Below are positions 6,251 through 40,608 of a stretch of 43,119 nt of DNA, piece by piece. How positions within the stretch are numbered: the first letter of the stretch is position 1; each line of letters starts with the position of its first letter. The notes beneath the pieces were generated by a model. It was not told the origin of the DNA and did no database searches. It saw only the letters and a list, made by a program, of their open reading frames with translations. Both the position numbers and the translations under genes were made by a program. The DNA is from Erysipelotrichia bacterium (GTDB taxonomy: Bacteria > Muiribacteriota > Ozemobacteria > Ozemobacterales > Ozemobacteraceae): positions 1 to 43,119 of the forward strand of contig SABV01000003.1 in the NCBI GenBank assembly GCA_009928855.1, given 5' to 3'.

Positions 6251-6262
6251 GTCAGTAATCCT

Positions 6263-7147: not shown

Positions 7148-7150
7148 AAT

Positions 7151-8359
7151 TTAGTCAGAACCACCAATCCTTAAGAATTCGTCAGTAATTCCTTTTAGAA
7201 ACTGATTGAATTTGCTGCTTTCTTGAACTTCAAGAGGTGACATACCATCGTATTTTCCGATCTGTTCGCGTGTTATACCAATCTGCCTGACCAGACGACC
7301 GGGGTTTGCCTGAAACATAAAAATTCGATCGCTTAGAAAAACCGCCTCAGCAAGTGAATGGGTAACAATAAAGACTGTGGCTTCCACTTCATGCCACAGG
7401 CTGGTGATGAGTTCCTGCATTTCTATTCTGGTGGGCTCATCAAGAGCCGAAAAAGGTTCATCCATGAGAATAATTCGCGGTTTCAAAACCAGTGTTCTGG
7501 CGATGGCGACTCTTTGCTGCTGTCCGCCAGAAAGTTGATAGGGGTATTTATCTTCATGTCCCTTCATTCCGACTTTTGCAATCATGTCTCGCGCCAGTTT
7601 TTCCATGACTTGATCAGAATAGCCGAGCGATTCTCTGTTAAGCTGTAATCCGAACATTACATTGTGTAAAACGCTCAAATGCGGAAAAGAGCTGTATTTT
7701 TGAAAAATCATCCCGCGGTCGCGACCAGGGCCTGTTACGGGCTTATTACGAACAAGAACTTCACCGCAGGTTGGCGGGCCCACTTCCTGAAAACCCTGGA
7801 TCAGGTTCAATACAGTAGATTTGCCGCATCCAGAGGGCCCGACCAGAGCTATGAATTCGCCGATATCGGGCAAGTCTTCTATTTCAAATGATATGTTTTT
7901 CAGAGCTGTGAATTCATTTGGTGTTCCCGGGTTGAAGACTTTGCTGACATTGCGGAATGTGACGATTGATGGATATCGAGGTTTTTCGGCAGCTTCGTGC
8001 AGATTTTGCATGTCAGCAACCGGGGCGGAAACAATGTTTTCTGTGTCGGGTGCTGCCGCATCGATGGGTTTTTCTGTGGTTGTCTGAGATTTCTCAGGTG
8101 ATCGTGGCAAATCCTTCTGAGAGTGAATTACGGCGGATTCTTGAGTTGGCTGGGTTAAGCTGGCTGGCAAGGGTTCTGTTGCTGCTTCTTCTTTTTGGTC
8201 ATGAGAAGCTTTAACCTCTGGGTGAGCCACGGTTACCGCCATTTTTTGTGAACGTGAACGATCTTTTATCTGTAGTCTGGGGTTAGCGTCGTCAAAACGG
8301 TAAAAAAGCCCCATTATTTTTCGAAAAAAAGATGCCGGTTTGTGCGGTTGTTCAGTCAT
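7151..8359 (-). CDS. NitT/TauT-family ABC transporter ATP-binding protein with long N-terminal extension
   Basis: Residues about 130-400 form an ABC ATPase of the nitrate/sulfonate/taurine class. Visible motifs are Walker A GPSGCGKST (174-182), Q-loop MIFQKYSSFPHL, signature LSGGQQQRVAIARTL (276-290), Walker B IILMDEPFSALD (296-307) and the switch histidine in VTHSLAEAV. The protein is 402 residues, whereas family members are usually near 260. The excess is a 130-residue N-terminal region rich in Pro, Ser, Thr, Glu and Lys with no visible fold, possibly a flexible tether. The start overlaps the permease stop as ATGA. It should energise the permease encoded upstream. The substrate cannot be read from the ATPase; taurine, sulfonate, nitrate and thiamine-precursor importers all share this type. 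Confidence 0.93.
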   Translation of the reverse strand: MTEQPHKPASFFRKIMGLFYRFDDANPRLQIKDRSRSQKMAVTVAHPEVKASHDQKEEAATEPLPASLTQPTQESAVIHSQKDLPRSPEKSQTTTEKPIDAAAPDTENIVSAPVADMQNLHEAAEKPRYPSIVTFRNVSKVFNPGTPNEFTALKNISFEIEDLPDIGEFIALVGPSGCGKSTVLNLIQGFQEVGPPTCGEVLVRNKPVTGPGRDRGMIFQKYSSFPHLSVLHNVMFGLQLNRESLGYSDQVMEKLARDMIAKVGMKGHEDKYPYQLSGGQQQRVAIARTLVLKPRIILMDEPFSALDEPTRIEMQELITSLWHEVEATVFIVTHSLAEAVFLSDRIFMFQANPGRLVRQIGITREQIGKYDGMSPLEVQESSKFNQFLKGITDEFLRIGGSD

Positions 8360-11288: not shown

Positions 11289-11304
11289 TTTCTCCTCTAT
11301 ATTT

Positions 11305-12060
11305 TCAGTTTTTCTGCATGGGACCCATGCCTCTTTGTGGAACCTCTCCTGTTGATTCTCCCTCGGTTGTTGGCGTGCCTGAGATTGCGATGCCGTTCAT
11401 TGCCGCGAATTCGGCAAGAGCCGCATCTCCGAGAGCTTCCATTTCGGCTTCTTTCATGGTGACCTGTGAGCTGTCGTAAGAACCTGTAGCAACTCTTGCT
11501 CTGCCGACCGCTTTATCGCGTCTTTCTTCGAGCATTTCAGTGACACGGTTTATTGTGTCGCCGCTTGAGCCGATACCTGCTACCATGCCTTTGGCCATTT
11601 CCTGGAGTTCGGCCTGTGCTTCGTGCATCTGGGTTTCACTTACTAGGTTCTGCAATTTTTCAATTTTCAACTGGGCTTCTCTGACGGCGACATCTCTTGA
11701 TTTCTCAAGATCTTTGAATGTTTTGTCAGCGATTTCAAGTTGGGACTGATTTTCTTCAAGCTGCTGTCGAACAGTTTGCAACTGCAAAGCGAGCTGACCT
11801 GCAACTTTATTGTTGCCAGCTTTGAGGTTTGCCGTGATTTTGGCAGTCAGTTCTTTATCTTTTGCCGAAAGAGTCTTAACCTGTCGCATCAGTCTTTCGG
11901 TAAAGGCTGCATGGTTTGCCAGACTTTCATTGAAGCGGGAAATCTGAGTTCTCAGGTTTTCCTTTTCGTTTTCAATGAGAGCTTCAGGGTTGCTTGCCTC
12001 GAGCCCTTTGATAAAGAGACTGAAGAAACCTCGAATAATATTCATCAAACGTTTGAACAT
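11305..12060 (-). CDS. pspA: PspA/IM30-family membrane-stress protein
   Basis: The 251-residue protein is almost entirely helical coiled coil and starts MFKRLMNIIRGFFSLFIKGLEASNPEALIE, the amphipathic first helix and following segment typical of PspA/IM30/Vipp1. Other family features are IEKLQNLVSETQMHEAQAELQEMAKG and a flexible Gly-rich tail of about 30 residues. Proteins of this ESCRT-III-like family assemble on the cytoplasmic face of the inner membrane to maintain it under stress. Here the gene sits between two SBP-OmpA paralogs, 22 nt after the first and 16 nt before the second, with an excellent AAAGGAG ribosome site. No pspB, pspC or pspF gene is visible; the operon instead supplies a different AAA+ ATPase. 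The family call is firm, and its link to the transporter rests on operon structure. Confidence 0.9.
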   Translation of the reverse strand: MFKRLMNIIRGFFSLFIKGLEASNPEALIENEKENLRTQISRFNESLANHAAFTERLMRQVKTLSAKDKELTAKITANLKAGNNKVAGQLALQLQTVRQQLEENQSQLEIADKTFKDLEKSRDVAVREAQLKIEKLQNLVSETQMHEAQAELQEMAKGMVAGIGSSGDTINRVTEMLEERRDKAVGRARVATGSYDSSQVTMKEAEMEALGDAALAEFAAMNGIAISGTPTTEGESTGEVPQRGMGPMQKN

Positions 12061-12082
12061 TTTCCAACTCCTTTAGAGAGAA

Positions 12083-13837
12083 TTATTTCTCAGGTGTAAA
12101 AACTTGAATTTCGACGCGTCTGTTCAGGGCCTGGTTCATCGGGTCTGTCGGGTCAGCTGGCTCATTCCAGCCTTTTCCTTCTGCGATGAATTTTTCTCTG
12201 GGAAATTTATATTTACGCACGAGAGCACTGCGAACAGAACTGGCTCGGTCGCTTGAAAGGTCTTTGACTGCCTTTTCTGGCACCTTGCCCTTCATAGAAC
12301 TGTCGGTATGACCGATAATGGCAACCTGAGCCCTATCATACTGGCCAACCATGCGAGCTATTTTTTCGAGAGTAGCATCTACGGTAGGGTCGTAAAGAGT
12401 ATTGGCAATGGACTGGCCGAACTCGTCATGTTCTGGTTCATAGATATTGTCTGAGTTTGGGTAAAAATTGATTCTTACCGTCTGTGTCAGCACAGGTGCT
12501 TCGGCAGAGACTTTTTTGTAGCTTGTCGAAACAAAGCGGCTTACCTGAACATCTTTTTGGTCGGCAAACATGCCTTTGGCGAGGAACTTTTTGACGATTG
12601 AAAAATCGACGACTTCGTCAAATCTCACCGGGGTGCCTATTTGACCCAGTTCTCTATATACATAGATAATGTTTTTCCAGGTTCTTTCGAAGTTTGTCGG
12701 GCTGTTTTTGTTCAAAAAGAAATTCTGGTTTTCGGCAAAATTGGTGATGTAGGCGTCCTGCTCCATAGACTTAATGTCTTCAAGCTTCATTCCATAACCT
12801 TCGGCCATGTGGTTGAAGGCTTTGGTTTTGGTTGTGTCGTTTTTGAGCATACTCATGCCTTCAAAAATGCCTGCAACAAGACCCTCTATTATGTCGGGGT
12901 GATCCTTGGCAAAATCGGCGCGTGCCGCCCATACGTCAGTGATAAGACGGTTGGCGTCAGCAGTGGTGGTTAAAATTCGTGTGCCTGCTATTTTTTCGGG
13001 GATAGTGTAAATGTCTGGTGCCCAGCTGACACATGCATGAATGCTCTTGTCGGCAACAAAGGCCGCAGCAGCTTCAAATGCGGTTGAAGTGTATTTGTGG
13101 GTTACCTTGTTGAGCGGAATGCCGGCGTTTATGAGCAGGTTGGTAATAAAATACTGCGAGGGACTATTCTGGGCGTAAACAATGGTCTTGCCTGCCAGGT
13201 CTTTTACCGACCTGATATTGCCTCTGACCACTATACCATCTCCGCCGTTAGACCAGTCGACCTGTTGAAAAACTCTCGGTGCAGTGCGGCTGTCTTTCAT
13301 CAGACCCGGGGCGAAAAGGGCTATCATGTCGAGTGTGCCCCAGAGAATGTGTGATTCGCCAGATGCAAAAGCATCACGTGCGGTGATCGGGTCATCGATC
13401 AGTTTGAGATTGACCTTGAAACCATATTTTTTAAAGAAGATGCTATCTTCGTTGGGGGCGAAACCATTGTTGGCTGCAATGATTGGCAGCCAGCCAAACC
13501 ATACGTTGATCGGAAAAACAACAGTTTTGTCAGTTTCATCCCATTTGTAGCCTGATACACCGCTGACTGGCGGCAGGGCTTCGTTTGGCTTATATGTGTA
13601 TTCCTGAACAGTTGTTACGCCAGCGGTATCAGGAGCTTCTACTTTCATTGTCTGGGGTGTGGTCGGTTGTTTAACGTCTGTGCCGGCTGCCTGCCCTGGT
13701 GTTGCAGTCTCATCAGAGGGAAAAAGACGGCCTTTTAGTTCTGGTGAAAACGAGATGGCCGCACCAAAAATGCAGGCGATAACAAACATGAACATAACGA
13801 ATTTTCCCAGCGGGGTGGGGCCGATATCGTCGCTCAT
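12083..13837 (-). CDS. Membrane-anchored ABC substrate-binding protein fused to OmpA-like domain (copy 1)
   Basis: First gene of the operon, 584 residues. Residues about 11-32 (KFVMFMFVIACIFGAAISF) form an N-terminal membrane anchor with no clear cleavage site. A low-complexity linker (about 40-75) follows, then an NMT1/SsuA-like binding domain (about 85-400; VFPINVWFGWLPIIAANNG, ACVSWAPDIY) and an OmpA domain (about 450-580; GHTDSSMKGK, LSSDRASSVRSAL, NRRVEI). With an inner-membrane anchor at one end and a peptidoglycan-binding domain at the other, it could physically bridge membrane and wall with a solute sensor in between. Its similarity to copy 2 is high along both domains, indicating duplication of the whole fusion. 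It has an AGGAGG ribosome site and a clear promoter (13903-13930). The ligand is unknown. Confidence 0.93.
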   Translation of the reverse strand: MSDDIGPTPLGKFVMFMFVIACIFGAAISFSPELKGRLFPSDETATPGQAAGTDVKQPTTPQTMKVEAPDTAGVTTVQEYTYKPNEALPPVSGVSGYKWDETDKTVVFPINVWFGWLPIIAANNGFAPNEDSIFFKKYGFKVNLKLIDDPITARDAFASGESHILWGTLDMIALFAPGLMKDSRTAPRVFQQVDWSNGGDGIVVRGNIRSVKDLAGKTIVYAQNSPSQYFITNLLINAGIPLNKVTHKYTSTAFEAAAAFVADKSIHACVSWAPDIYTIPEKIAGTRILTTTADANRLITDVWAARADFAKDHPDIIEGLVAGIFEGMSMLKNDTTKTKAFNHMAEGYGMKLEDIKSMEQDAYITNFAENQNFFLNKNSPTNFERTWKNIIYVYRELGQIGTPVRFDEVVDFSIVKKFLAKGMFADQKDVQVSRFVSTSYKKVSAEAPVLTQTVRINFYPNSDNIYEPEHDEFGQSIANTLYDPTVDATLEKIARMVGQYDRAQVAIIGHTDSSMKGKVPEKAVKDLSSDRASSVRSALVRKYKFPREKFIAEGKGWNEPADPTDPMNQALNRRVEIQVFTPEK

Positions 13838-13986: not shown

Positions 13987-14583
13987 ATGGTGTCGATAAT
14001 GGCTGACATGAATATGAGAAAAACAATCTATTTTCTTGTGCTGTCTTTTACCTTGATTGCGGTTCAGGGTTATTGTTTGAGCGGTCCAACACTGCTCATG
14101 GACTCAAAAGCCGACACCTCTGAGTTCGTTGGCGGTATTGGTCCGCTTGTAAAGTATAAGCGGGTGTCTGCTCCATCTGATTTTGGCGGAGATATGACCG
14201 TCTGGGGAATCAGAGCCTTCGGGGGCAAATTGAATGACCCGGAGATTGGTTTTATTTATTCATCGGGCTCGCTTAGCGGTACAAGTCTAAAATTCAAGCT
14301 TGATATGGCCGGGCTGACTCTCGAAGATTCTTTTCGTGAAGATTCAAGAGTTAAATGGAGGGCTTCGTTTGGAGTCGGTCAGTATAGTTTGCAGAGCCGG
14401 GCTTCTGGTCTGGTTATGAACAAGGGATCTTTTGCTTTTTTAGAGCCTATGCTTGTCGGAGTTTTGCCCATGAGCCGACATATAGTTCTAGAATTTGGGG
14501 TCGGCTATACTTTCGCCGGAGCCACCGGAGTCAGGGTAGAGGGACTTGCGATAAATGCAGAACTGCTGATGGGTAAATTTTAA
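13987..14583 (+). CDS. Small secreted beta-rich protein, possible outer-membrane barrel
   Basis: No family recognised. The 198-residue product has an N-terminal hydrophobic export signal (TIYFLVLSFTLIAVQGYCLSG). The rest alternates short amphipathic stretches of strand character (AFLEPMLVGVLPM, IVLEFGVGYTFAGATG, LAINAELLMGKF), the pattern of a small outer-membrane beta barrel, and ends in Phe as many barrel proteins do. AAAGAGAG lies just before the ATG; in-frame ATGs at codons 5, 8 and 10 are alternative starts. It is transcribed divergently from the SBP-OmpA operon across a 149-nt spacer and could be functionally linked to it. Its 3' end overlaps the TPR gene tail-to-tail through a shared TTAA. 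Confidence 0.7.
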   Translation: MVSIMADMNMRKTIYFLVLSFTLIAVQGYCLSGPTLLMDSKADTSEFVGGIGPLVKYKRVSAPSDFGGDMTVWGIRAFGGKLNDPEIGFIYSSGSLSGTSLKFKLDMAGLTLEDSFREDSRVKWRASFGVGQYSLQSRASGLVMNKGSFAFLEPMLVGVLPMSRHIVLEFGVGYTFAGATGVRVEGLAINAELLMGKF

Positions 14584-17500
14584 CTCTTCTGGCGGGTATA
14601 AATTTTGTCAGAACGATCGAACGCATCTTTGTAGTTAATGTCAACATTGCAGATCATATCGTAAATTTTCAAAGCCTCGGTATATTTTTTTTCTGTTTCC
14701 AATGCTACGCCCGTTCTGTAAAGAACGTCCTTGATGTTTTCGCCCATGATTTCGGGGTCAAAATCAAGGGTTTCGATGATTTCCATGGCCATTCCGGCTT
14801 TGCCTTTTTGTAGCCAGGCATCAGCCAGCAGCAGCCCGGTGTCTTTGTTTCTCTCTGACGCAAATTCGGGGCTGAGAAGTCCAATTACTTCATCCCATTT
14901 CTTTTTTGCCGCTTTTTCACGGGCTGCAGATAATTGACTTGGAGCGGTGACACGATCAGTTCCATTGATGTGATTCTGAGGTGTTGGCGGTGCAATTGGG
15001 GGGATTTCTGTCAGCAGATCATCTTCGGTAACCATATTCTGGGTTGCAAAATTGCCAATTGACAGATCTTCTGCCTTGTTTCCGCCGAGTTCTTCCGGGA
15101 GATCGCCAACAAAATCGTCAAATATTGTATCTGAATCATCAAACGGGTTGAGAGTCGGCAGATTGATCGCGGAGGCTGGAAGAGGCACGTCAGGTGCTGG
15201 TGTGGGTTGCTCGTAGTTGAAGGCGTATTCGTCATTTTTTAGAAAATCCGGCAATGGAATATTCTGGCCATTGTCATCTTCAAACCCTTTGGGCGGCGGT
15301 TCTACGAAACTATCGATGTCGAGCCCATCGTTATCGTAACTGCCCGGCTCTGGAAGATCCGGCATTGGCAGTTCATCGGGAATATCCGATAAAATGCTCT
15401 CTTCTGTTTCGGATGAAAAACCGGTGGCGTCTTTTTTGAGCCCGGCTATGATTTCCATCAGCTGCGGGTTGCCTGGGTAATGCCGCATAAAGTCTTCATA
15501 CTGAGCGATAGCCTCATTAACCATTTTTAACTTTTTCATGGACGAGGTGTATACAACATGGATGCCCATGTTATTGATGTTTTCATTGAGAACTTTTATG
15601 CATTCTCTTGCAGCGTCTGCGTATTGCCCGGCTTTGGCAAAATTGCGTGCCAGAAGCTCTCTGAATTCGATTTTATCTTTGATTTTGAGGGCATCTTCAA
15701 GAACAGTGATAACCTCTTTGCCCATAGAGCGGTTTTGCACATAGCCTTCGGCAAGAGCGATGATGACAGGGGGTTCTTTGCTGCCGTTCTGGTAGTAAGT
15801 AAAAAGCACTCCCATGGCTTCGACTGTTTTGTTTTTGGTTTCAGCGTAGTGTTTTGCTAATACTGGCAAATACTCAGTTTTGTGAGGGTTTTCTGTGTAA
15901 ATGGCTTCATACATGGTGATTGCTTCATTAGAGGTGTCGTGGCTGGCCATGGATGCCTTGGCCAAATACCCCCAGGCAGTGGTATTGCCAGGAAACTTTT
16001 CGAGAATGATTCTGGCATTTTCCTGGCATCGAACGAAATTTTTCAGCTCGAAATGTGCTTTGGTAAGTATTTCAAGAAGTTCTCGTTCGATTTGCACGGG
16101 TTGCTTTTTGGTAAGAGCCTTTTCAGCCAGAGAGATTGCTCTGTCAAATCTTGCCTTTTCAAAGGCTTTTTTGGCACTTGCTACAGGGTCTGACAAAGAA
16201 AAAGTCAGTGCCGGCATCAGCCTTAACAGAAATACAGTTAAAAACATCAGAGCAAAGATGCCAAACCCGATGTTTACCCATGTTTTGTTTATCTCATACC
16301 AGAGACCATAGCGTAGCTGGTTAAAATTAACCTGATTTCTGGTGAAAGATTCTTCGTTTTTCATGAAATTCTGGAAAATGCTGTCTGCGTCTTCATAACG
16401 ACGCGTTCCGTAGAGAATTTCCAGTTTTGTCCATTCAATGTCGCGCCTGAAAAGCGGGTCGGTGTCTTTGTCTTCAAGAACTATGGCGAGATATTTCAGC
16501 GCATTGTCGTAATCTGGTTCCGGGCGTAACAGATATGATTTCCCTATAAGAAAAGCGGCCTCTTTAAAGCGTATGGGTTCTTCTTTATAGGCTTCTTCCA
16601 GAGTTGGAATCGCCTGGTCATATTTTTCTGCTTCAAAAAGTTCTTTTGCTTTTTTATAACGTTTGAAAAGATCAAATTTTGTGTCGAGTTGGGATCTTAT
16701 CTCGTCTTTGCCAGGCAGGCCAGGGTAAAGCTCTACTGCTTTTTTCCAGTTGTTATCGGCGTCATCGTAACGACGGTTTTCTATTTGTTTGGCTGCTTGA
16801 TTAAGCCAGTATTCGGCTTTTTTTATTTTTTCTTTTTCGGGGTCTTCTGCCGGGTTTTCGACTTCGGTTTCTGTGGCAACACCTACGGGAAGGGGTCTTT
16901 CGATTTCTGTGCCGTCAACGGGTTCTGGCAATTGTGTATCAGGCAGTTCTGAGATCTCTGTTCCGGGGTCATCGGGCAGATTGTTCTGCTCTGTTTCATC
17001 TGGAAGCGGTGAATCGTCATCATTGCCATCGTTGATTTGTGCAGATTCTATTGGCTGCGGCTGGTTTGTGTTCTGGGTTTGCGTGGGTGCCGTTACTATA
17101 GTCGGGTCATTTTCAAACGGACTTTCCGGGGCTTCCGGTATTTCTGCTGCGCCTGCAACCGGCGTTGAACGTTTCAGAAAATTTGTGTTTCTGCATATTT
17201 TGCGGGCGGTGGCTACGCCATAACTTTTGCATGAATAAAGAAACTGAAAATCTTCAAAAACAACGGGCGAATCCGGCATGCTTTCCAATACGGTGCCCAT
17301 CTGGTCAAAGGCCTGAGTTAAATTACCTTTGCGAAAAAGTATTTTGGCAAAAACGTAGTTAGCTACTGGTCCCGATTTATTTTCGAGGGCCTTTGAGATG
17401 TTGGCAGAGGCTTCTTCGAGCTTGCCCTGATGAAAATTGATATCAGCCAGGATGGTAAAAATAGCCGGATCATCCGGGTTGATACGTGCCTGCTTGTTCA

Positions 17501-17714
17501 GTCGCTCTTTGGTGCGTTCAAGAAGATCTATTCTGAGTTTCTCAAGTTTGGGGTCGAATTCGTCTTTGCTGAGCTCCTGACGAAGAAGCTCCATGTATGC
17601 TTCCCCATACATTCTGGCGCTGAGGAACTTGCGCAGTGATACGTAGTCTTCGGAGGCGGCAGACAAAGCAACCGTTTTGCCCGCAAAAATAATTGCAAAA
17701 AGCAGGAGCAGCAA
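14580..17714 (-). CDS. Large bitopic TPR-repeat membrane protein (acidic linker)
   Basis: About 1044 residues. An N-terminal hydrophobic signal or anchor is followed by TPRs (about 60-160), an acidic Pro/Asn/Glu-rich linker (about 195-300), more TPRs, and a membrane helix (VNIGFGIFALMFLTVFLLRLMP, about 486-507). More TPRs (about 525-760), a second Pro/Asp/Glu-rich linker and a last TPR set follow. The probable topology is one TPR block outside and one inside the cytoplasm. The track start at 17714 is a TTG inside the signal's hydrophobic core. The frame stays open upstream and reads HSKKSFF before that core, so the true start is probably further up. AAGGA, overlapping the previous gene's stop, sits 7 nt before an in-frame CTG at 17771. 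No binding partner can be read; a pilus scaffold role is suggested by the operon only. Confidence 0.82.
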   Translation of the reverse strand: MLLLLFAIIFAGKTVALSAASEDYVSLRKFLSARMYGEAYMELLRQELSKDEFDPKLEKLRIDLLERTKERLNKQARINPDDPAIFTILADINFHQGKLEEASANISKALENKSGPVANYVFAKILFRKGNLTQAFDQMGTVLESMPDSPVVFEDFQFLYSCKSYGVATARKICRNTNFLKRSTPVAGAAEIPEAPESPFENDPTIVTAPTQTQNTNQPQPIESAQINDGNDDDSPLPDETEQNNLPDDPGTEISELPDTQLPEPVDGTEIERPLPVGVATETEVENPAEDPEKEKIKKAEYWLNQAAKQIENRRYDDADNNWKKAVELYPGLPGKDEIRSQLDTKFDLFKRYKKAKELFEAEKYDQAIPTLEEAYKEEPIRFKEAAFLIGKSYLLRPEPDYDNALKYLAIVLEDKDTDPLFRRDIEWTKLEILYGTRRYEDADSIFQNFMKNEESFTRNQVNFNQLRYGLWYEINKTWVNIGFGIFALMFLTVFLLRLMPALTFSLSDPVASAKKAFEKARFDRAISLAEKALTKKQPVQIERELLEILTKAHFELKNFVRCQENARIILEKFPGNTTAWGYLAKASMASHDTSNEAITMYEAIYTENPHKTEYLPVLAKHYAETKNKTVEAMGVLFTYYQNGSKEPPVIIALAEGYVQNRSMGKEVITVLEDALKIKDKIEFRELLARNFAKAGQYADAARECIKVLNENINNMGIHVVYTSSMKKLKMVNEAIAQYEDFMRHYPGNPQLMEIIAGLKKDATGFSSETEESILSDIPDELPMPDLPEPGSYDNDGLDIDSFVEPPPKGFEDDNGQNIPLPDFLKNDEYAFNYEQPTPAPDVPLPASAINLPTLNPFDDSDTIFDDFVGDLPEELGGNKAEDLSIGNFATQNMVTEDDLLTEIPPIAPPTPQNHINGTDRVTAPSQLSAAREKAAKKKWDEVIGLLSPEFASERNKDTGLLLADAWLQKGKAGMAMEIIETLDFDPEIMGENIKDVLYRTGVALETEKKYTEALKIYDMICNVDINYKDAFDRSDKIYTRQKS

Positions 17715-17781
17715 AAAAAACGATTTTTTGCTGTGAATAGTGCTGTTCTGTGTGAAATCTATTGGTTTCAGGGATTGTTCC

Positions 17782-20358
17782 TTAGCAGAGATTTTTGCCG
17801 CAATATTGGCAACAATAGTCTTTAGATGAATTCAACTGATTGCAGTGTGGGCAGACGGCCTGACCCGATGCTGATTGCTGTTCGTCGGGCTGCGAAGCCG
17901 AAGGGCCACGCCTGTTTTCTTCGTTTAAAACGAGTTTTTGGGTTTCTTTCAGGCCGTTCTGAAATGCAACGTTATATGGATTGTTCTTAAGAAAATTAGC
18001 ATATATTTCGAGCAGGTCATTAAGGCGTTGCTGCTTATGGTAGGCTTCTCTAAGAACAGAGTGAACAAGTTCGTTGTTGACATCAGAGTTTATGACCTGC
18101 TCGCAGAGTTGCAGACAACTGTCAAACTGCCGTAATTTGAGGTGTATGCGGGCAACTCCAAGCAAAAATTCGGCTTCAGGAGAGCCAAGTTCCATCATTT
18201 TCTGGAATACTTTCATAGCTTTGTCATCGCTGCGAAGCTTTTTGAGATAATACCGACCAAGAGGCTTGAGAACATCGGGATTATTCGGATCCAGGTTGAG
18301 CCACTGTTCCAATATTTTGACGCCATCTTCGGAAAGGGTTTTTTGTTGTGTGTAATGCGAGCCCAGTAAGGATACCAGGGCAATGTTACGCGGATCTTTC
18401 TGATAAAGGCTGAGAAGTTCAGGAAGACTTTCCGGGGATAGCATGCGCCTGCCCAGATATGCGTAACCCAGCCATAAATGAGCGTCTTCGTCTTTCGGGT
18501 TAATAGAAATAAGGTGCTTACACTCACCGATTGCCTTGTCATAAATGCCACGCTTCAGATAAGCCTGACCCAGAATGCGTGATATCAGGGCGCCGTCAAA
18601 ATATGTCAGGTTCGGCAGGCGCCTGATTTTCATCAGTTCTTCGATGCATTCTTCAAGCATTTCTTTTTTCAGAAAAGTTTGTGCTTTGCGGATCGACGAA
18701 TTTTTACTGTATTCAGGTAGATATTTATACAGGGCATAGGCAATCCATAAAAGCAGTGCCAATACAATGACCGGAAAGATTTTTTTCCACTTGGCAGTGC
18801 TCGAAGCCAGCAACTTGTCGTTTATTTCAGGATAATCAGGATCAGAGTCGTAAATTTCCTTGAAATATTTGAATGCCATGTCTTTTTCGTCTTTTTTGAG
18901 AAGAATCGAGGCAATGACGAACTTGGCACGATTGTTTTCTTTTTGGATTGTAAGCTGATAGCGTGCTTCTTCGAGAGCTTTGTCTTCGTTGCCTGTTTTC
19001 CAGTAGGCTTCAGCCAGATAACTGGGCAGCTGAACATCGAAGTTCTTAGGCAATTGCGACAGGTATTTGAGTGAATCCTCGTATTCATAGGCGTTTCTGG
19101 CGTCGAGAGCTTTTTTCCAGAGAGTTGCGTGATCATCTGATGTTTTTATTTTTGCAATTTCTGATTCAAACTGTTGCCTGAAGCGGTTTTGTGCCGTGTC
19201 CAGTTCTATGATTGCCATGCCCCTGTTAAAACATGTTGCGGCATCTTTCTCGTTTCCTGCTTCATTGAATTGCTTGCCGCGCCGCAAAAATCCTTCTATT
19301 AAAGCTGATCTGCCTTCTTGGTCTCTAGGCAGCCTGTCTGGCCGGCCAAGAAGTTTGAGAAGGCTGTCTTCCTTTTTTGAGGCTTCTTCTAGTAACTTCT
19401 GCGCTTCAGCATTTTCTGGCTCTACAGACACAACGTATTCGAGCATATCTCGGGCCTCAAGCCAGCTGCCATTTTTTACCATTTTTTGGGCTTCAGTCAT
19501 GCTTTGTTTGGCATCTCTAGACTGGGTTAGCTTGTCGAGAGCCGCTTGCGCCGACTCATTACCCGGAGACAGCTCTTCTGCACGCTTTAATATTTCTATG
19601 GCTGCTTCATTATTGCCGGCTTCTTTTTCGGTCTGGGCCTGTTTTACCAGCTCTTGCACTGCCTGCGACTGTTTTTCTTTTATCGTGTTCAAAAGCTGTT
19701 TTATCGAATCCGGATTTTTCAGTGAATATTTGGAAGCGTTATCTGCGTGGATTCTGGCTGTATTCAGATTGTTTTTTTGCAATTCGATGGTTGCCATAGT
19801 GAAAAAGAGCTGACCCATCTCTTCAGAATCATAACGGGTTCGCAAAGACGGATTTTGAGCGATTAGTTTCTCGCCCATGGCAAGTGCTTTTTCCTGATGG
19901 TTAGCTGCAATAAGCCGATCGATTATTTTAAGCCCGATTCCGATTTCGCTGGGGTTTACCTGTACAATTTCGTTCAGAATCTGTTCTAATGCCGTTGTAT
20001 CTTTTGATTTTTCAATAGCGGGCAGGCTCTCTTTGAGCACCTTGGCGTAAGCCTCAGCGTAATTTGTGTTTTCTGGCTCAAGACCCTGCGCTTTTTTGAG
20101 CATTTTGACCATTTCATCGCGTTTATTGCGCAATTTTAGCAATTTCGCCGCGTTAAAATAGGGTTCGGCCCAGGCCGGTTCGAGTTGCATTGCCTGCTTC
20201 AAATGCAGGATTGCTTCTTGATGATGCCCGCTGTCGATTGCCAGAAGGCCCTTGCGATTCAGTTCTCTGGCTGCTTCTGATTGTGCAAAAACAGAGATAC
20301 TGGAAATAAAAAACACTGCTAAGATGCAGACAGCAAAAAAAATCTTAAAGCGGTTCAT
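17782..20358 (-). CDS. Bitopic TPR-repeat protein with C-terminal zinc ribbon
   Basis: The track's first 27 residues are spurious. The ATG at 20358 (MNRFKIFFAVCILAVFFISS) has GAGGAAG just before it and begins a signal or anchor sequence. The 858-residue product then has many TPRs (about 30-530; for example AWAEPYFNAAKLLKLRNKRDE), a membrane helix (IFPVIVLALLLWIAYALYKYL, about 550) and a second TPR block (about 580-800). It ends in a zinc-ribbon-like motif with CPHC and CQYCGKNLC. If the N-terminal block is periplasmic, the ribbon is cytoplasmic. Architecture and order match the neighbouring 1044-residue protein, suggesting a paired complex. The gene lies 38 nt after the HEAT gene in the pilus gene run. 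Function unknown. Confidence 0.87.
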   Translation of the reverse strand: MNRFKIFFAVCILAVFFISSISVFAQSEAARELNRKGLLAIDSGHHQEAILHLKQAMQLEPAWAEPYFNAAKLLKLRNKRDEMVKMLKKAQGLEPENTNYAEAYAKVLKESLPAIEKSKDTTALEQILNEIVQVNPSEIGIGLKIIDRLIAANHQEKALAMGEKLIAQNPSLRTRYDSEEMGQLFFTMATIELQKNNLNTARIHADNASKYSLKNPDSIKQLLNTIKEKQSQAVQELVKQAQTEKEAGNNEAAIEILKRAEELSPGNESAQAALDKLTQSRDAKQSMTEAQKMVKNGSWLEARDMLEYVVSVEPENAEAQKLLEEASKKEDSLLKLLGRPDRLPRDQEGRSALIEGFLRRGKQFNEAGNEKDAATCFNRGMAIIELDTAQNRFRQQFESEIAKIKTSDDHATLWKKALDARNAYEYEDSLKYLSQLPKNFDVQLPSYLAEAYWKTGNEDKALEEARYQLTIQKENNRAKFVIASILLKKDEKDMAFKYFKEIYDSDPDYPEINDKLLASSTAKWKKIFPVIVLALLLWIAYALYKYLPEYSKNSSIRKAQTFLKKEMLEECIEELMKIRRLPNLTYFDGALISRILGQAYLKRGIYDKAIGECKHLISINPKDEDAHLWLGYAYLGRRMLSPESLPELLSLYQKDPRNIALVSLLGSHYTQQKTLSEDGVKILEQWLNLDPNNPDVLKPLGRYYLKKLRSDDKAMKVFQKMMELGSPEAEFLLGVARIHLKLRQFDSCLQLCEQVINSDVNNELVHSVLREAYHKQQRLNDLLEIYANFLKNNPYNVAFQNGLKETQKLVLNEENRRGPSASQPDEQQSASGQAVCPHCNQLNSSKDYCCQYCGKNLC

Positions 20359-20396
20359 GACTTCCTCATTTTTCTCAAGTATGACCGCTTGACAGT

Positions 20397-21713
20397 CTAA
20401 GTTATTTTTGAAAGTTTTGCCAGTGCTTTTAGTGCGCATCTTCTGACGTCGGGGTCAGAGTCTCCGGTCAGGTCCTGTAAAACATCGCCAAACTGAAGAG
20501 CGCCAATTTCGCCAAGTGCCCAGGCTGCTGACGACCGCATCTGTTTATGCGAAGACCTGAGCATTTGTTTAAGAGTCAGGATTGCGCCAGTTCCGCCAAG
20601 TTTCCAGAGTGCTGTTGCCGCATTGCTTCTAACACGGTTATGAGAGTCACTAAGCATCGGGAATAACAGTTCGGAATACTGTGAATCTTTGAGCATTCCT
20701 ATTGATTCAACACTGTTGGCACGCACGCGGCCGTCGGTGTCTCGAAGAGCCTTGGCGAGCAAAACCACTGTTCTTGGATCTTCAGATTTTCCGATGCTTT
20801 TGATCATTGTGGCACGCAGTCTGGAATTTTCTTCGCGGCTGTATTTTTCGGTTAGACGGGCAAGGGCAAGATCAGCGCTTAATTTTAGCGCGACTTTGAT
20901 AATTGTATCTCTTATTCCAGGTTCTTCTTCTTTTGCAAAAGCTTCTATGAGGTTGGCAATAACTTTTCCTGAACCTATTTTACCGATACTTAATACGGCG
21001 CGATTTCTCACTGTGGGCGAGATATCGCTCAAAAGACCGATAAGGAGATCTATAGAACGCTCTTCTTGTATTTCGCCCAGAATATAAGCGACCGAAGCTC
21101 TTTTGCGTGTGTTAGGCGATCTGAGTTCTTCCGGTAGTGTGTTAAGGCCGAAGCGAATGCCTTTCATCCAGAGTGCCTTAAGAGCATTAGCTCTGACGCG
21201 GTTGTTGCGGTCTGCTACGAGCACTTTCAGAACTTCAACGATTTCTGGAATATCAATGTCGCCGAGCGCTTCTACAGCGTTAGCTCTTACTCGTTCATCG
21301 GCATAATTAAGAAAAGCCTTCAAAAGCGGCACAAATTCGGCAGACTTGAGAGCGCCGAGTACTTTTATTCCCGTGGCAACCAGCGCCGGGTCTTCTTCTC
21401 GCTTTAAAAAATCACATATGGCAGCCTTTACTTCAGGCTGGTGGCGATTTTGAAGCGCATACAGCGATTCTCCGCGCAAAACACTGTTCGGGGATTCGAG
21501 ATAAGTGATGATCATTCCGATGATTTCAGGGTCAGAAGTCTTTTTTGAGGCTTTCATTGCGGCACACACCACTTCGGGGCGGCCATCGCGAAGGCCTTCA
21601 AGAACGAATTCATCCATGTCTTCAATCGGGTTTCGCAACAGACCCTTCAGGCAGAACAGCCTTACGCTTTTATCCCTATCCTGGAAAAGTTTCTTCAGGG
21701 TTTTATAATCCAT
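20397..21713 (-). CDS. HEAT-repeat protein
   Basis: The 438-residue soluble protein consists almost wholly of about 30-residue HEAT/PBS-lyase-type repeats, recognisable by recurring DPxxxVRxxAxxALG units (VRANAVEALGDIDIPE, VRNRAVLSIGKIGSG, VRANSVESIGMLKDS, MRSSAAWALGEIGAL). There is no signal peptide or membrane helix, so it is cytoplasmic. Such solenoids are protein-binding scaffolds with no catalysis of their own. It follows the pilP-like gene by 12 nt with TAAGGA serving both as stop and ribosome site, and precedes two TPR membrane proteins. The linkage suggests a cytoplasmic scaffold of the pilus/secretion base. Two other HEAT genes occur in this window at pilT and before apt. Confidence 0.9.
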   Translation of the reverse strand: MDYKTLKKLFQDRDKSVRLFCLKGLLRNPIEDMDEFVLEGLRDGRPEVVCAAMKASKKTSDPEIIGMIITYLESPNSVLRGESLYALQNRHQPEVKAAICDFLKREEDPALVATGIKVLGALKSAEFVPLLKAFLNYADERVRANAVEALGDIDIPEIVEVLKVLVADRNNRVRANALKALWMKGIRFGLNTLPEELRSPNTRKRASVAYILGEIQEERSIDLLIGLLSDISPTVRNRAVLSIGKIGSGKVIANLIEAFAKEEEPGIRDTIIKVALKLSADLALARLTEKYSREENSRLRATMIKSIGKSEDPRTVVLLAKALRDTDGRVRANSVESIGMLKDSQYSELLFPMLSDSHNRVRSNAATALWKLGGTGAILTLKQMLRSSHKQMRSSAAWALGEIGALQFGDVLQDLTGDSDPDVRRCALKALAKLSKIT

Positions 21714-32872: not shown

Positions 32873-33949
32873 ATGATTTTTGAGCTGATGAATCTTTGTA
32901 TGGAAAAGGGCGCGTCTGATCTGCACTTTAAAGTGGGTTATTCGCCAGTTTTGCGGATTGACGGGGCGATGCGGCCTGTTAAAGAGATGCCGCTAATATC
33001 AACCAGCGATTACGAGGCCATGCTGGAATCCATTCTGGACGATCTGCAACTGGTTAATTTTATTAAACATCGCAAGCTGGATCTTGGGTACAGCTTTCAA
33101 AACGCTCGTTTCAGAGTTAACCTTTTTAATGATCTGCACGGTGGAAATGCCGTGTTCAGGGTTATTCCATTTCAGCATCTGGCATTCAGTGATATTGGTC
33201 TGCCGCAGTCCGGGCGAAAGCTGGGCGACAAACAAAAGGGGATGATTCTGGTGACCGGTGCGACCGGTGCAGGTAAATCCACTACACTCTCTGCCTTTAT
33301 TACGCACATCAACACAAACTACTGCAAGTCTGTAGTGACTGTTGAAGATCCTATAGAATATCTTTTTGAAGACGAAATGAGTCTGATTAGTCAGCGGCAG
33401 GTTGGAGTAGACTGCCTTTCTTTTGAGGACGGCATCAGGGGCGCATTAAAAATGGATTGCGATGTGTTGATGGTCGGAGAGCTTCGCAATGCCGATGCTG
33501 TCGAGATGTCTCTGTTAGCCGCAGAATCAGGGAAACTTGTTTTCGCTACCCTGCATAGCAATACTGCGATTCAGGCAATCGATCGTTTCGTAAATCTTTT
33601 TCCGCAGAATCTCCATTCGCAGGTGCTTGGCCGTCTCTCTTCGCATCTGCAGGGTGTTGTAACTCAGACTCTTGTGCCTAAAAAACTTGCGCGTGGTCGA
33701 GTCGCAGCATTTGAAATTTTGATAAATACTCCTGCGGTCAGAGGGTTGATCAATGAAAATCGCGTGCATCTCATTTCTTCCTACCTTGAATCTGGGGCAA
33801 CCAGCGGTATGGTGTCTCTCGACAATTCTCTTGTAGACCTTGTTCTTGAGAATAAGGTCGATAAGACTGAGGCCCTGCTGAGGGCTAATAATAAAAGCTA
33901 TGTAAAACGAAAAATAGAAGAGCGCGACGGTTCCGGAGGTGCAGAATGA
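32873..33949 (+). CDS. pilT: PilT-family retraction ATPase
   Basis: The track start (32825) is too early. ATG 32873 has GGAGG about 5 nt upstream and gives 358 residues starting MIFELMNLCMEKGASDLHFK, the PilT N-terminal form. Walker A GATGAGKST (129-137), aspartate box VEDPIEYL (157-164), Walker B MVGELR (200-205) and histidine box ATLHSNTA (225-232) are all intact. The conserved C-terminal AIRNLIREGK-like stretch reads TPAVRGLINENR. In type IV pili PilT disassembles pilins to retract the fibre. It is first of a three-gene set with ATGA overlaps to the next two, and lies divergent from ftsE. Confidence 0.93.
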   Translation: MIFELMNLCMEKGASDLHFKVGYSPVLRIDGAMRPVKEMPLISTSDYEAMLESILDDLQLVNFIKHRKLDLGYSFQNARFRVNLFNDLHGGNAVFRVIPFQHLAFSDIGLPQSGRKLGDKQKGMILVTGATGAGKSTTLSAFITHINTNYCKSVVTVEDPIEYLFEDEMSLISQRQVGVDCLSFEDGIRGALKMDCDVLMVGELRNADAVEMSLLAAESGKLVFATLHSNTAIQAIDRFVNLFPQNLHSQVLGRLSSHLQGVVTQTLVPKKLARGRVAAFEILINTPAVRGLINENRVHLISSYLESGATSGMVSLDNSLVDLVLENKVDKTEALLRANNKSYVKRKIEERDGSGGAE

Positions 33950-34989
33950 GACCGGAAGTATTTGAATATTTTGAAAGAGCCATGGAAATGGGGGCCAGTG
34001 ATCTGATTTTGAAGCCGGGTTCGCCGCCGTCTTTCAGGGTAAACAGGCATTTGCTTGTGTCTGAAGACGAAGCGTTGGCCCCACAGCAGATGTATGACCT
34101 CTTTTTGCCGATTGTCAGCGCTTCCCAGCAAGAAGAGCTGCGCACCAGATTTTATGTTAATTCAATTTTTTCTTATCGTCATCAGACGCGTGTCAGATTT
34201 TATATTTTTCAGCAACGCGAGGGTCTGGCTGGTTCTTTTAGATTTATTCCGCCAAAAGTTCCTACGATAAGAGAGTTGGGGCTTCCTGAATCATTGATCA
34301 GTATAGCAGCCAGTCCGCGTGGGCTTTTTCTGATCGCAGGGCCGGCGTGTTCTGGCAAGACTATGACTATTGCTGCAATGGCAGATGCTATCAACAAAAG
34401 GTTTGCGCGCCATATTATAACTATGGAAAGCCCGGTAGAGGTTATTTATACGCCCAGCCAGGCCGTTTTTACACAGGTGGAAATAGGAAAAGTTATTGGC
34501 TCTTATTCTGAAGCTCTCACAAACTCACTGCGCGAGGATCCCGATGTAATAATTCTGGGTGAACTGAGTGACCGCGCTACGGTTGAGCAGGCTTTGATGG
34601 CTGCAGAAACCGGGCATTTTGTTCTTTCTTCATTGCCTACAATGGGTGCCGGGCAGACTATTGAGCATATCGTCAGTATGTATCCTCCGGGCAAACAGGA
34701 AGAAGCTCGTTCGCAGCTGAGCCTTAGTCTGATCGGCATCTTTTCGCAGATGCTGGTTCCGAGCGTGAATCCTTTTCAGGCGCCGGGAGTTGCGTATGAA
34801 TTGATGCTGGTTAATCCTGCAATCAAAAACCTGATTCGCGATAAAAGATACAATCAGATGAACACTGCAATGATAATGGCTAAGAGAGAGGGTTGTGTCA
34901 CTTTCAAGGAATCGCTTGAAAAACTGATAAGAAACGAAGGCGTCAATCAGGACATTGTTAGAAGTTTGCTGCAGGAGTTAGAAGAATGA
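33946..34989 (+). CDS. Second PilT-family ATPase, with altered motifs
   Basis: The 347-residue protein is a paralog of PilT, starting with EYFERAMEMGASDLILKPGSPPSF (ASDLHLxxGxPP family signature). The Walker A is complete (GPACSGKT, 132-139) and the Walker B reads DPDVIILGEL. The aspartate box is MESPVE in place of EDPIE, the arginine after Walker B is lost (GELSDR), and the histidine box reads LSSLPTMGA so its catalytic-sensor His is replaced by Pro. NPAIKNLIRDKR, near the C-terminus, is well kept. The changes suggest a nucleotide-binding subunit with low or no hydrolysis, comparable to PilU-type partners, but the homology does not prove it. Its ATG overlaps the pilT stop. Confidence 0.88.
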   Translation: MRPEVFEYFERAMEMGASDLILKPGSPPSFRVNRHLLVSEDEALAPQQMYDLFLPIVSASQQEELRTRFYVNSIFSYRHQTRVRFYIFQQREGLAGSFRFIPPKVPTIRELGLPESLISIAASPRGLFLIAGPACSGKTMTIAAMADAINKRFARHIITMESPVEVIYTPSQAVFTQVEIGKVIGSYSEALTNSLREDPDVIILGELSDRATVEQALMAAETGHFVLSSLPTMGAGQTIEHIVSMYPPGKQEEARSQLSLSLIGIFSQMLVPSVNPFQAPGVAYELMLVNPAIKNLIRDKRYNQMNTAMIMAKREGCVTFKESLEKLIRNEGVNQDIVRSLLQELEE

Positions 34990-37310
34990 ACGAATTAGCT
35001 CAAAAACGTATCCGGGAAATCAGGGAAAAAGTTGCTGCTGCAGTCAATAAACATCTGACAATGGACCTTTCAGAGGCTGCCAGGGGCAAGCTTTTTATGA
35101 CGCTTGCCGGCACAGCTCTTGAGAGCTCTAAGGGAGCCATCTTCAATTATTTGCAGACCAGGCCGGAAAGAGAAGAAGCCATTATTGCCGCCAGCAAGTT
35201 TGACTGCGAGTCGATCGAGACTTTTTTGCTGGAACAGCTTAAAAAACCTCACGCATTGTATCGTGAAGTTATCATTGAACAGCTTGGGCTTAAAAAACGT
35301 GAAGCGCTGGTATCTCTTCTGAAGCCTTTTTTGGCTGATCCAGACAGGCATGTTCGCTTTCAGACAATTCACAGCCTTTTTAATATTGGCGGCAGAGAAG
35401 CGGCTCTTGCAATGTGCGAATTTATTTCTGATCCTGACGAATGGATCTCAATGACTATTCTGCGCTTGTTGTGCATTATGCGCGAGCTTGATTCAATTCC
35501 CATTCTTGCCGAAAAATACTATCAGGATGACGATTTAAGGCGCAAAGCTTTGATGATATCGTTTCTTGCAAGGTTCAGAAGTGTAACTTTGCTTGGTATT
35601 TTTGATCAGGGAATTCAGGCCCGTGATGCGCGCCTGCGAGCGAACTCTATCGAGGCGGTCGGCAACCTTAATTTGCCGGCAGCAGAAATAAGATCTCGAA
35701 TTGAGCCTTCTTTGCGTGATCCAAACAATCGTATCAGAGCGAACTCTATTTTAGCGCTTGCCAGGCTAGATCCTGAAAAAATCAAGCCTGAAATCGCCGA
35801 GATGGTTAATTCAAACGATGTTCAATTGAGGCGTAGCGCCGCTTTTATTCTGGGCATGATTCCTTCTGACGACTATCATGATCTGGCCGCTATTCTGGTT
35901 GTAGACCAGAATGATGCCGTCAGAAAAAGAATGATCCAGTCGCTTCGCAATTTTTCTTCAGAGTTTGTTTGCAATCAGCTCGAAAAGGCGCTCGGTGACG
36001 CGGACAAATGGATTCGCAAACACGCAGTGGATATGGCAGCGCGTGTATCCAATTTTCCGCATAAGAAAGTTCTTACTCTCCTTAAGACCGAGAGAGCCGC
36101 GCCGAATCTGGCTGCCTGCATGAACTTTTTTGCTGCGCATCCGGTTGAAGAAGCACTTGGACCAATAAAAATGCATGTTAAAGATCGACGCTTACCCGTT
36201 GTTAAAGCGTTTTTAAATGCAATGGCTTCTATCGGCGGCATGGAAGGTGTCAAATCTGTTGCGCCTCGATTAGAACAGAAAGACCCGTCTGTGACTCAAG
36301 CCTTGAGCGAGGTTCTTATCAAAGCCGGTGGAGGTAAGACTCTTGATGATCTTGTTGAAAAATTTGCTCAGGCTCGCAACGAAAATCAGGTGATCACTCT
36401 TGTGCCTTCCCTGCTCAGTTCGCTTGAAATTCTAGGCCAGGGCGATAATATGCCTGAACCTTTGCTCAGAAGTCTTGAGTCTGTAGCAGTCGAAATTGTT
36501 GCCGAGCCCCCAGAGTCGCCAGTTATAACGTCAGAGTCGCTTGCTGAATTTTCTGGTGCTGATACAGCCGGACTCGTAGAGATTCAGGGCGAAGAACCAG
36601 AGCTTACTCTCGATTTTTCTTCTAACTTACCTGATCTTTCAACACTCGGGTCTGCAGCAGTAAACGAAAAAATGCCCACCGAAGACTCAGAAGCAGACGC
36701 TGACAAAACAGATGCCGAAAAACATTCAATACATTATCGTCAGGGTCTTAAAGCCTACAATATTGGCAAGTATAAAAAGGCTATAACTGAATTTAACAGA
36801 GTTCTTGAAACCGATGAGCACCCTCCGAAAAACGTCTTTTTATACATGGGCATCATTTACAGCGACCAGGAAAATTATGAACAGGCCAGAGATTACCTGC
36901 AAACCTTTCTTCAGAAGGCCCCTGATCACGAAAAGGCCCTTTTTCTGCTCGGAAAAATTTATAAACAGTTGAAAAACTGGGATGGCATGATCAAGATTTA
37001 TTCTCGCTTTGTTGGCGGCGAACTTAAGATTTCACCAAAAATGAAAATGCGTGTTTATCATGACCTTGGCATTGCTCAGATCCTTATCGGAAAATATCAA
37101 GAGGGTTTAAAGCTCCTTTCGGCTCTTCTCAAAAAAAAGCCGGAAGATGCAGAAGTCGCCTATTATGCGGCACTCGCGCAGTTCCATCTCGAAAATTTAC
37201 CGGCGGCGGCCACAATATTGCAGTCTGCAGTAAAAAATGCGGTTGGTAATAAAAGAATTGCACGCCTGATCGATGCTCTTGCCAAAAAAATTCGTGGCGA
37301 AGAAAACTGA
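34986..37310 (+). CDS. HEAT-TPR scaffold protein linked to PilT ATPases
   Basis: The 774-residue cytoplasmic protein has HEAT-type repeats from about 50 to 480 (VRFQTIHSLFNIGGREAA, LRANSIEAVGNLNLPA, IRANSILALARLDPEKI, LRRSAAFILGMIPSD), an acidic linker (about 500-575) and TPRs (about 580-774; HYRQGLKAYNIGKYKKAITEFNRVLETDEHPP). No signal peptide or membrane helix is seen. Its start overlaps the second PilT gene by 4 nt (ATGA), giving tight co-expression. A scaffold role for the retraction motors is inferred from operon structure. Confidence 0.9.
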   Translation: MNELAQKRIREIREKVAAAVNKHLTMDLSEAARGKLFMTLAGTALESSKGAIFNYLQTRPEREEAIIAASKFDCESIETFLLEQLKKPHALYREVIIEQLGLKKREALVSLLKPFLADPDRHVRFQTIHSLFNIGGREAALAMCEFISDPDEWISMTILRLLCIMRELDSIPILAEKYYQDDDLRRKALMISFLARFRSVTLLGIFDQGIQARDARLRANSIEAVGNLNLPAAEIRSRIEPSLRDPNNRIRANSILALARLDPEKIKPEIAEMVNSNDVQLRRSAAFILGMIPSDDYHDLAAILVVDQNDAVRKRMIQSLRNFSSEFVCNQLEKALGDADKWIRKHAVDMAARVSNFPHKKVLTLLKTERAAPNLAACMNFFAAHPVEEALGPIKMHVKDRRLPVVKAFLNAMASIGGMEGVKSVAPRLEQKDPSVTQALSEVLIKAGGGKTLDDLVEKFAQARNENQVITLVPSLLSSLEILGQGDNMPEPLLRSLESVAVEIVAEPPESPVITSESLAEFSGADTAGLVEIQGEEPELTLDFSSNLPDLSTLGSAAVNEKMPTEDSEADADKTDAEKHSIHYRQGLKAYNIGKYKKAITEFNRVLETDEHPPKNVFLYMGIIYSDQENYEQARDYLQTFLQKAPDHEKALFLLGKIYKQLKNWDGMIKIYSRFVGGELKISPKMKMRVYHDLGIAQILIGKYQEGLKLLSALLKKKPEDAEVAYYAALAQFHLENLPAAATILQSAVKNAVGNKRIARLIDALAKKIRGEEN

Positions 37311-39099: not shown

Positions 39100-40608
39100 A
39101 TGAAAATGGATATTAAAGTAAAAAGACTCCTCAAAGATCTGACAAACTCAGATGATGATCTGCGGGCACTCTCGGCAATGACTCTTATGAAACTTGATTT
39201 TCCTGATAATGTTGCCCGCGAAGAAGTTTTGCAAAGCCTTGTTAAGGCAACCCAGGATAAAAGCGTTTCGGTCAGATTCTTTGCGCGCAAAGCAATAGAT
39301 AAAATAAAAAAAACCGAGAAGCTTTTAAAAACGGGCATAAGCGAGTCATCTGTCGGGCTTGACGAAACTCTCGTTGCAGATGACTACAAAGAGCGTTTGG
39401 CGGCTGTAATGGAGATAAGCTCAACCGGTAATGCAGAATACAAGCAAAAATTGCTTAAAATGCTTGAAACTGAGGATCATGCATTTGTCAGGGCTGCTCT
39501 TATAAGCTGTCTTAAATTATTTATGGACAAGGCCGAGGCCTCTGTCTTAAGTCCCTTTCTTTCTGATGCTGATAATCGCGTCAGGTCCAATACTATAGAA
39601 GCATTAGAATATCTTAAGGCTGAAGAGGTCATTCCGGCTCTTTTTTCTGCTTTGTCTGACCCGGATAACCGCATCAGAGCTGTTGCAGCTAAGGCATTGC
39701 AGTCTTTTGGCGAGGAAAAAGTATTTGCTGAATTAAAAAAAATGCTTGAGTCCCCTGAAGAATGGATGAAAAGCAGCGCCATTTACGCACTGTCGCATAT
39801 TCAGGCCGGTGAAGCCATAGAATTGCTGCTTGAAGCTGCCAGACTTGCCACAAGTGCAGAAATAAGAATCAGAGCAATTGTTGCGCTCGCCAATTATTAT
39901 GACTCAACTACATATGGCTTTTTGAAGGCTCTCGCCACCAGTGGTGAAGGTATCTTCAAAGAAACGGCGAACAAGGCTCTCAGACTCCTGGAAGAAAAAC
40001 ACGGGGCCGAGCCGCCTGTTGCGACCATAGTAGCTGTGCATGCCGAGTCTGTTGAAACACCGTCACTCGAAAAACCGGTTTCAGACGGTGGGCGTGCCGA
40101 TGATATCACTTCTGCCGTTTCAAAGCTTTTTCGCAAAGGAAAAGAAGAAGCGATTGGTCTTTCAAACCGTGCTGCGATAAATTTTGCCGTTACCGACATC
40201 AAAAAAGAGCTGGATGAACTATGCAAAGAAGTCGGACGCACTGCTTTCGACATTTACCAGTCGGGCGAAATTGAGTTGTCGGCTTTGTTAACTCAGGGGC
40301 ATGAGATTCTCAGAATGAATTTCTTTATTCAAAAATACGCAGAACAAGAAGAAAAAGCGGCCAGTAAAAAGCCGACAGGTTTTCTGGAACAACTCAAAAG
40401 CCTTTTCTCAAAAACTGCAGAGCAGAAGCAGTCTGCTTCTCAGGCAGAAAAATTTACCAAAAAGCGTGATGAGCTTTTATGTAAGTTCGGGTTGCTTGCC
40501 CTGAAAAAATACGAAACAGAAGAATTTAGGCATAAACAGATAGATGCTTATTTTGTAACCTACCAGCGTCTTTTAAAAAAGCTCGACGCTGAGCAGAAAA
40601 AAATCTAA
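39100..40608 (+). CDS. HEAT-repeat protein with helical C-terminal domain
   Basis: The 502-residue soluble protein has HEAT repeats from about 5 to 300 (VRANTIEALEYL-type units: VRSNTIEALEYLKAEEVI, IRAVAAKALQSFGEEKV, MKSSAIYALSHIQAGEA). A Pro/Glu/Ser linker and a helical, lysine-rich C-terminal half (about 330-500) with no recognised family follow. Start may be 39100 or the in-frame ATG at 39106; GGGAAG suits the second slightly better. It is first of a possible set with apt (14 nt downstream). TATGAT at 39062-39067, just after the proS terminator, may be its -10. No function can be assigned. Confidence 0.87.
   Translation: MKMDIKVKRLLKDLTNSDDDLRALSAMTLMKLDFPDNVAREEVLQSLVKATQDKSVSVRFFARKAIDKIKKTEKLLKTGISESSVGLDETLVADDYKERLAAVMEISSTGNAEYKQKLLKMLETEDHAFVRAALISCLKLFMDKAEASVLSPFLSDADNRVRSNTIEALEYLKAEEVIPALFSALSDPDNRIRAVAAKALQSFGEEKVFAELKKMLESPEEWMKSSAIYALSHIQAGEAIELLLEAARLATSAEIRIRAIVALANYYDSTTYGFLKALATSGEGIFKETANKALRLLEEKHGAEPPVATIVAVHAESVETPSLEKPVSDGGRADDITSAVSKLFRKGKEEAIGLSNRAAINFAVTDIKKELDELCKEVGRTAFDIYQSGEIELSALLTQGHEILRMNFFIQKYAEQEEKAASKKPTGFLEQLKSLFSKTAEQKQSASQAEKFTKKRDELLCKFGLLALKKYETEEFRHKQIDAYFVTYQRLLKKLDAEQKKI

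Follow-up and report, generated by a model that had tools for sequence, protein, structure and literature searches.

A predicted split-site pilus motor in Ozemobacteraceae: two PilT paralogues with reciprocal active-site losses, encoded together with a HEAT-TPR protein

Two PilT-family ATPases are encoded in tandem in a Riflebacteria genome, and their genes overlap each other and the gene of a HEAT-TPR protein. Neither ATPase carries a complete Walker A/B, Asp box and His box, which raises the question of what the two could do, alone or together. The window, that is, the whole stretch of 43,119 nucleotides analysed here, belongs to a MAG of 4.47 Mb (Ozemobacteraceae; contig C571), whose close relatives bear the names Candidatus Riflebacteria, Rifleibacterium and Ozemobacter. 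The reading that we favour, with a probability of roughly 0.6, is that PilT1 and PilT2 assemble obligatorily into a mixed hexamer, (PilT1-PilT2)3, in which the two subunits alternate and three of the six ATP sites are live, the other three being non-catalytic; the HEAT-TPR protein probably holds this ring. The features of the locus are the following:

32873..33949, + strand: pilT1 (T1A), 358 aa; cis catalytic set kept (T133, K137, D161, E164, E205, H230), trans set lost (R195K, T221S, H223K)
33946..34989, + strand: pilT2 (T2A), 347 aa; trans set (R195, T221, H223) and Walker A K137/E164 kept, cis set lost (T133A, D161S, H230P; R207S)
34986..37310, + strand: HEAT-TPR scaffold candidate (HTP), 774 aa; HEAT solenoid at about 2-498, disordered linker 500-577, TPR 582-769
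33946..33949, + strand: ATGA overlap of pilT1 and pilT2; the spacing is -4 in the majority of genomes with locus A and -1 in two
34986..34989, + strand: ATGA overlap of pilT2 and the HEAT-TPR gene; nearly all A and B loci have -4 or -1
33449..33451, + strand: PilT1 codon at the R195 position, K (inter-chain arginine gone)
33527..33535, + strand: PilT1 stretch that opens the HIS box, with S for T221 and K for H223
34345..34347, + strand: PilT2 T133 position (A), Walker A loop
34429..34431, + strand: PilT2 Asp-box D161 position (S)
34636..34638, + strand: PilT2 codon at the HIS-box H230 position, P; 19/19 orthologues have P
39100..40608, + strand: second HEAT-repeat protein, 502 aa, 3' of proS; its position is conserved in many genomes with locus A, and it is a possible further member

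The first-pass annotation had described three tightly overlapped reading frames, the third encoding 774 residues with HEAT and TPR parts, and this gene structure was confirmed, both junctions being 4-nt ATGA overlaps. A Shine-Dalgarno-like sequence lies ahead of each gene, and the pilT1 start at 32873 corresponds to the same start residue in the orthologues. The trio (locus A) is divergent from ftsE-ftsX, beyond which pilins, pilB and pilM are found on the minus strand; proS and then the second HEAT protein follow on its 3' side. Directly behind the pilB-pilM region, the minus strand also encodes a HEAT-only protein of 438 aa (20397-21713) and two large TPR-like proteins (14580-20439). Another minus-strand cluster (4451-13837) comprises an AAA ATPase, an ABC transporter ATPase and permease, and two NMT1-type binding proteins fused to OmpA domains, with a PspA/IM30 protein inside it, and may represent a system resembling those for uptake, coupled to a protein of the envelope-stress type.

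Active-site residues are numbered according to Geobacter metallireducens PilT (6OJX chain, 20-residue offset), and the transferred labels T133, K137, D161, E164, R195, T221 and H230 coincide exactly with the published residues. The comparison set included 32 canonical PilT/PilU proteins from Riflebacteria, Acinetobacter, Neisseria, Aeromonas, Geoalkalibacter and others. In these, 42 positions are near-invariant, and T133, D161, R195, T221, H223 and H230 are kept in all; the three PilU references have lost none of these site residues. Against this background, 19 PilT2 and 17 PilT1 orthologues of locus A were compared. T133, D161 and H230 are lost in all 19 PilT2 proteins, which keep R195, T221, H223 and K137 (19/19) and E164 (18/19). 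E205 is lost in four of them, all from genus g11 (L060-L063; 4/4 genomes), in which E205Q removes the catalytic Glu too. PilT1, for its part, presents T133, K137, D161, E164, E205, R207 and H230 in 17/17 proteins; R195 and H223 (K) are gone from all 17, and T221 from 13/17. The R195 position is R in 32/32 canonical proteins versus K or Q in 17/17 PilT1; in the window the canonical LREDPD reads LKMDCD. Among the other PilT1 changes, T221S is conservative and E178Q falls outside the trans pattern. The N-terminal-domain arginines R81/R83/R98, Walker A and the catalytic Glu are kept, as in PilT/PilU. The TIGR01420 profile (cut-off 319.1 bits) scores PilT1 at 365.4 and PilT2 at 317.6, slightly under the cut-off.

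These counts refine what had been proposed for PilT2. Its Walker motifs are indeed kept (Walker A K137 and catalytic E205 are present) and its histidine box is lost, the P of LSSLP standing at H230. The claimed loss of the aspartate-box acid (MESPVE) is right for D161, which is S, but E160 and the Mg ligand E164 are retained. What had been missed is that PilT1 is also altered, at the opposite places (R195, H223, T221). Chance or assembly error can be excluded, because the pattern is kept in 19 PilT2 and 17 PilT1 proteins while the 32 canonical ones keep all the residues.

The meaning of the two sets comes from PilT structures, in which the contacts between packing units are H230-T221, T221-T133, R195-D161 and R195-T133 (PMC6858323). 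The gamma-phosphate is coordinated by H230, and T221 is supplied by the adjacent chain (PMC5424180); the arrangement of CTD-N to CTD-N+1 is given in PMC13142100. These contacts place T133, D161 and H230 on the nucleotide side and R195 and T221, with H223 beside them, on the neighbour side, H223 having been put there from PilB, where the side chain adjoins T411, and not from a listed PilT contact. When the four contact pairs were scored genome by genome, a PilT1 site with a PilT2 neighbour had 4.0/4 pairs intact in 17/17 locus A genomes, and the reverse composite, a PilT2 site with a PilT1 neighbour, had 0/4 in the same 17/17. The homomeric interfaces kept on average 0.47 (PilT1-PilT1) and 0 (PilT2-PilT2) of the four pairs. 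With T and S scored as equal, the values were 4.0 for the composite, 0.35 for the reverse, 1.88 for PilT1-PilT1 and 0.71 for PilT2-PilT2. According to these scores, interfaces are intact only if PilT1 and PilT2 alternate. A perfect polarity would be expected by chance in about 1/32 of cases, if six losses were randomly assigned to two proteins; since the residues tested number five or six and a single lineage is represented, the shared site is a strong prediction and not a proof. A comparison of the genomes by eye gave no clear coupling between the replacements at PilT1 R195 and those at PilT2 D161.

PilT1 has lost exactly the trans residues that PilT2 keeps, and so PilT2 would appear to provide an indispensable second half of the active site. 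In the mechanism that we propose, the two proteins would be co-translated as subunits of a (PilT1-PilT2)3 ring belonging to the family of type IV pilus retraction motors. PilT1 would give Walker A, the Mg ligand, the catalytic Glu and the gamma-phosphate His, and the neighbouring PilT2 would give R195, T221 and H223 in trans, completing and closing the PilT1 site. At the three interfaces of a PilT2 site with a PilT1 neighbour, ATP would be bound, K137 and E164 being kept, and would not be hydrolysed, as in F1-ATPase. The ring would then have three live sites and three structural sites. Its probable scaffold or adaptor is the HEAT-TPR protein, which would be translated from the same message through the overlapping genes and dock on the ring. 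Retraction would be the expected output. For the fuller version, in which the alternating ring with its cis/trans split site and three non-catalytic sites works as a pilus motor carried by the co-translated HEAT-TPR scaffold, we see about an even chance. The first-pass annotation had suggested that PilT2 may be a regulatory hetero-subunit; a hetero-subunit is strongly suggested by the data, but regulatory is too weak a word, given that the trans losses of PilT1 match what PilT2 keeps.

The same two proteins could instead form separate, stacked homohexamers, with PilT2 as a non-hydrolysing regulatory or coupling ring. There is precedent for this, as PilT and PilU of Vibrio cholerae are interacting homohexamers (PMC6821130), and for PilT/PilU stacked hexamers have been modelled and it is reported that they form no mixed hexamers (PMC12607626). 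We consider this arrangement unlikely here, because a PilT1 homohexamer would be without R195 and H223 at every interface, with 0.47/4 pairs intact, and because the three PilU references retain all these residues.

The ancestry of the pair was considered together with two paralogous trios, B and A', described below. All PilT1 proteins, whether from A, A' or B, group in a single clade, and all PilT2 proteins from these loci in a second, each with support of 100/100, and so the pair appears to have been duplicated as a pair. The three PilU references, in which the Acinetobacter assignment was checked against PDB 9N32, form a separate monophyletic clade (100/100), and PilT2 is placed outside it. 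The grouping of PilT2 within PilU, which would have contradicted the first-pass annotation, was therefore not found, and the identification of PilT2 as PilU was rejected. AU tests rejected neither a sister relation of PilT2 and PilU (p=0.30), a result that agrees with stacked homohexamers, nor one of PilT1 and PilT2 (p=0.21). A recent origin of pilT2 by tandem duplication of pilT1 was also rejected, the AU test giving p=4e-75 for a PilT1A+PilT2A clade.

The trio is under strong purifying selection. Most close pairs give PilT2 a dN/dS of 0.014-0.06, and one gives 0.137. These values, which are matched by those of PilT1, FtsE and FtsX, rule out a pseudogene. The lost motifs and the TIGR01420 score could also have suggested that PilT2 is a decaying PilT1 duplicate with no fixed role. 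The present data refute this idea, to which we give practically no credit: dN/dS is about 0.02 in most pairs, P230 is found in 19/19 proteins, synteny is kept across genera, and the split from PilT1 is ancient.

Among the 40 genomes of the phylum that were searched, PilT2 of locus A or B was found in 21/24 genomes of the family and in 0/16 others. Locus A occurs in 18-19 of the 24 family genomes, including the genome of the window, and most copies adjoin ftsE. In every locus A or B that is long enough, HTP directly follows the pair, so that a lack of conservation next to PilT2, the other finding that would have counted against the earlier proposal, was not observed. The overlap is 4 or 1 nt in nearly all; departures come from alternative start calls, and in L091 a frame call hides the junction. 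Contamination of the MAG (8.8%) is rejected as an explanation, since the relatives show the same synteny.

Locus B, a paralogous trio present in 19 genomes including our own (C338), resembles locus A in the order of its first three genes, in the HEAT-then-TPR layout of its third protein, and in its PilT1 and PilT2 clades. It differs in that its sites are nearly complete, only H223K (PilT1B) and T133A (PilT2B) being changed, and in two extra PilT-like proteins behind the trio. Its two losses have the same polarity and would represent an earlier step. Where the contig extends far enough, the order is pilT1-pilT2-HEAT-TPR-pilT3-pilT4, five genes with four PilT-like proteins around a single HEAT-TPR gene; in L092 no pilT3/pilT4 was recovered. 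PilT3B and PilT4B (L074-L091, e.g. L079:1007-3114) are conserved in 15 genomes and have lost catalytic residues: E205 to S, H230 to E/D and D161 to N in PilT3B; Walker A K137 to I and E205 to D in PilT4B.

The third trio, A', was found in two genomes (L071, L072; G018, G022), and in L072 its HEAT-TPR protein has 1040 aa. Both of its ATPases are without H230 and D161, and the pair is apparently non-hydrolysing; since both subunits seem dead, hydrolysis may be dispensable for some rings. If the split-ring reading is true, Riflebacteria would present a graded series of a near-complete pair (B), a split pair (A) and a dead pair (A'). The existence of A' and of PilT3/PilT4 without catalytic residues in both members also invites a different reading of locus A, namely that neither subunit now hydrolyses ATP well, or at all, and that together they serve at the pilus base as a brake or as a structural platform that binds nucleotide, with retraction performed by canonical PilTs elsewhere in the genome. 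Candidates for that work exist, as besides the two PilT1/PilT2 pairs five PilT-family proteins of the same genome exceed the family cut-off. Even so, this reading seems slightly less probable than stacked homohexamers, because the full cis set of PilT1A (17/17) would be needless in a dead protein and the trans set of PilT2A is kept in 19/19. Two PilT proteins of this genome, C714 (L097) and C187 (L099), carry N-terminal cyclic-nucleotide-binding and MshEN (c-di-GMP type) domains, which suggests nucleotide-controlled retraction motors.

Returning to the alternating ring, the role of its putative scaffold was approached by structure prediction. The HTP model (pLDDT 82) comprises the HEAT solenoid (2-498), the disordered linker (500-577) and the TPR domain (582-769), and the HEAT part is better conserved than the rest. 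A fold search with this model returned only generic solenoids (alphaRep, the PP2A A subunit, importins) and no functional lead. The AlphaFold model of PilT2, from a 7-sequence alignment, had a mean pLDDT of 41.9 and was unusable. A single-chain HEAT-PilT fusion of about 900 aa is encoded in the same genome (C753, L096), and such fusions extend to other genera and to a second family of the phylum (L130-L133, L136). They support a contact between HEAT domains and PilT rings, and lend indirect support to the first-pass suggestion that the 774-residue protein may hold the motor as a scaffold.

In pilus motors, the firing order of the six sites (C2, C3 or C6) is unresolved, partly since all six are identical. 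A ring in which evolution had fixed the firing interfaces would settle which conformations are productive, and three live sites are compatible with the alternating OCOCOC form. In addition, the heterohexamer hypothesis for these ATPases would become testable at the bench with two small soluble proteins, and HEAT-repeat proteins are suggested as an unnoticed class of partners of PilT motors. No paper in the open-access literature searched dealt with PilT of Riflebacteria or linked PilT to HEAT proteins; as far as that literature shows, this would be, if true, the first split-site alternating ring in the PilT/VirB11 family.

PilT1 and PilT2 share with PilT/PilU (TIGR01420) the family, the length and the tandem gene pair. 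On the other hand, PilT and PilU each have a complete site set and are described as homohexamers, whereas in the Riflebacteria pair the set is split between two proteins; the absence of complete motifs in either subunit sets it apart from an ordinary PilT/PilU pair. In the alpha3beta3 ring of F1-ATPase, catalytic and non-catalytic sites alternate, and the non-catalytic subunit gives residues in trans. The site alternation predicted for PilT1/PilT2 is alike, as a working analogy with a different ATPase family for which no homology is claimed. A similar idea is the hypothesis that duplicated protomers of TFF-superfamily ATPases pass through mixed hexamers (PMC6711533), which was proposed without an example, and for which PilT1/PilT2 offers a sequence signature predicting one.
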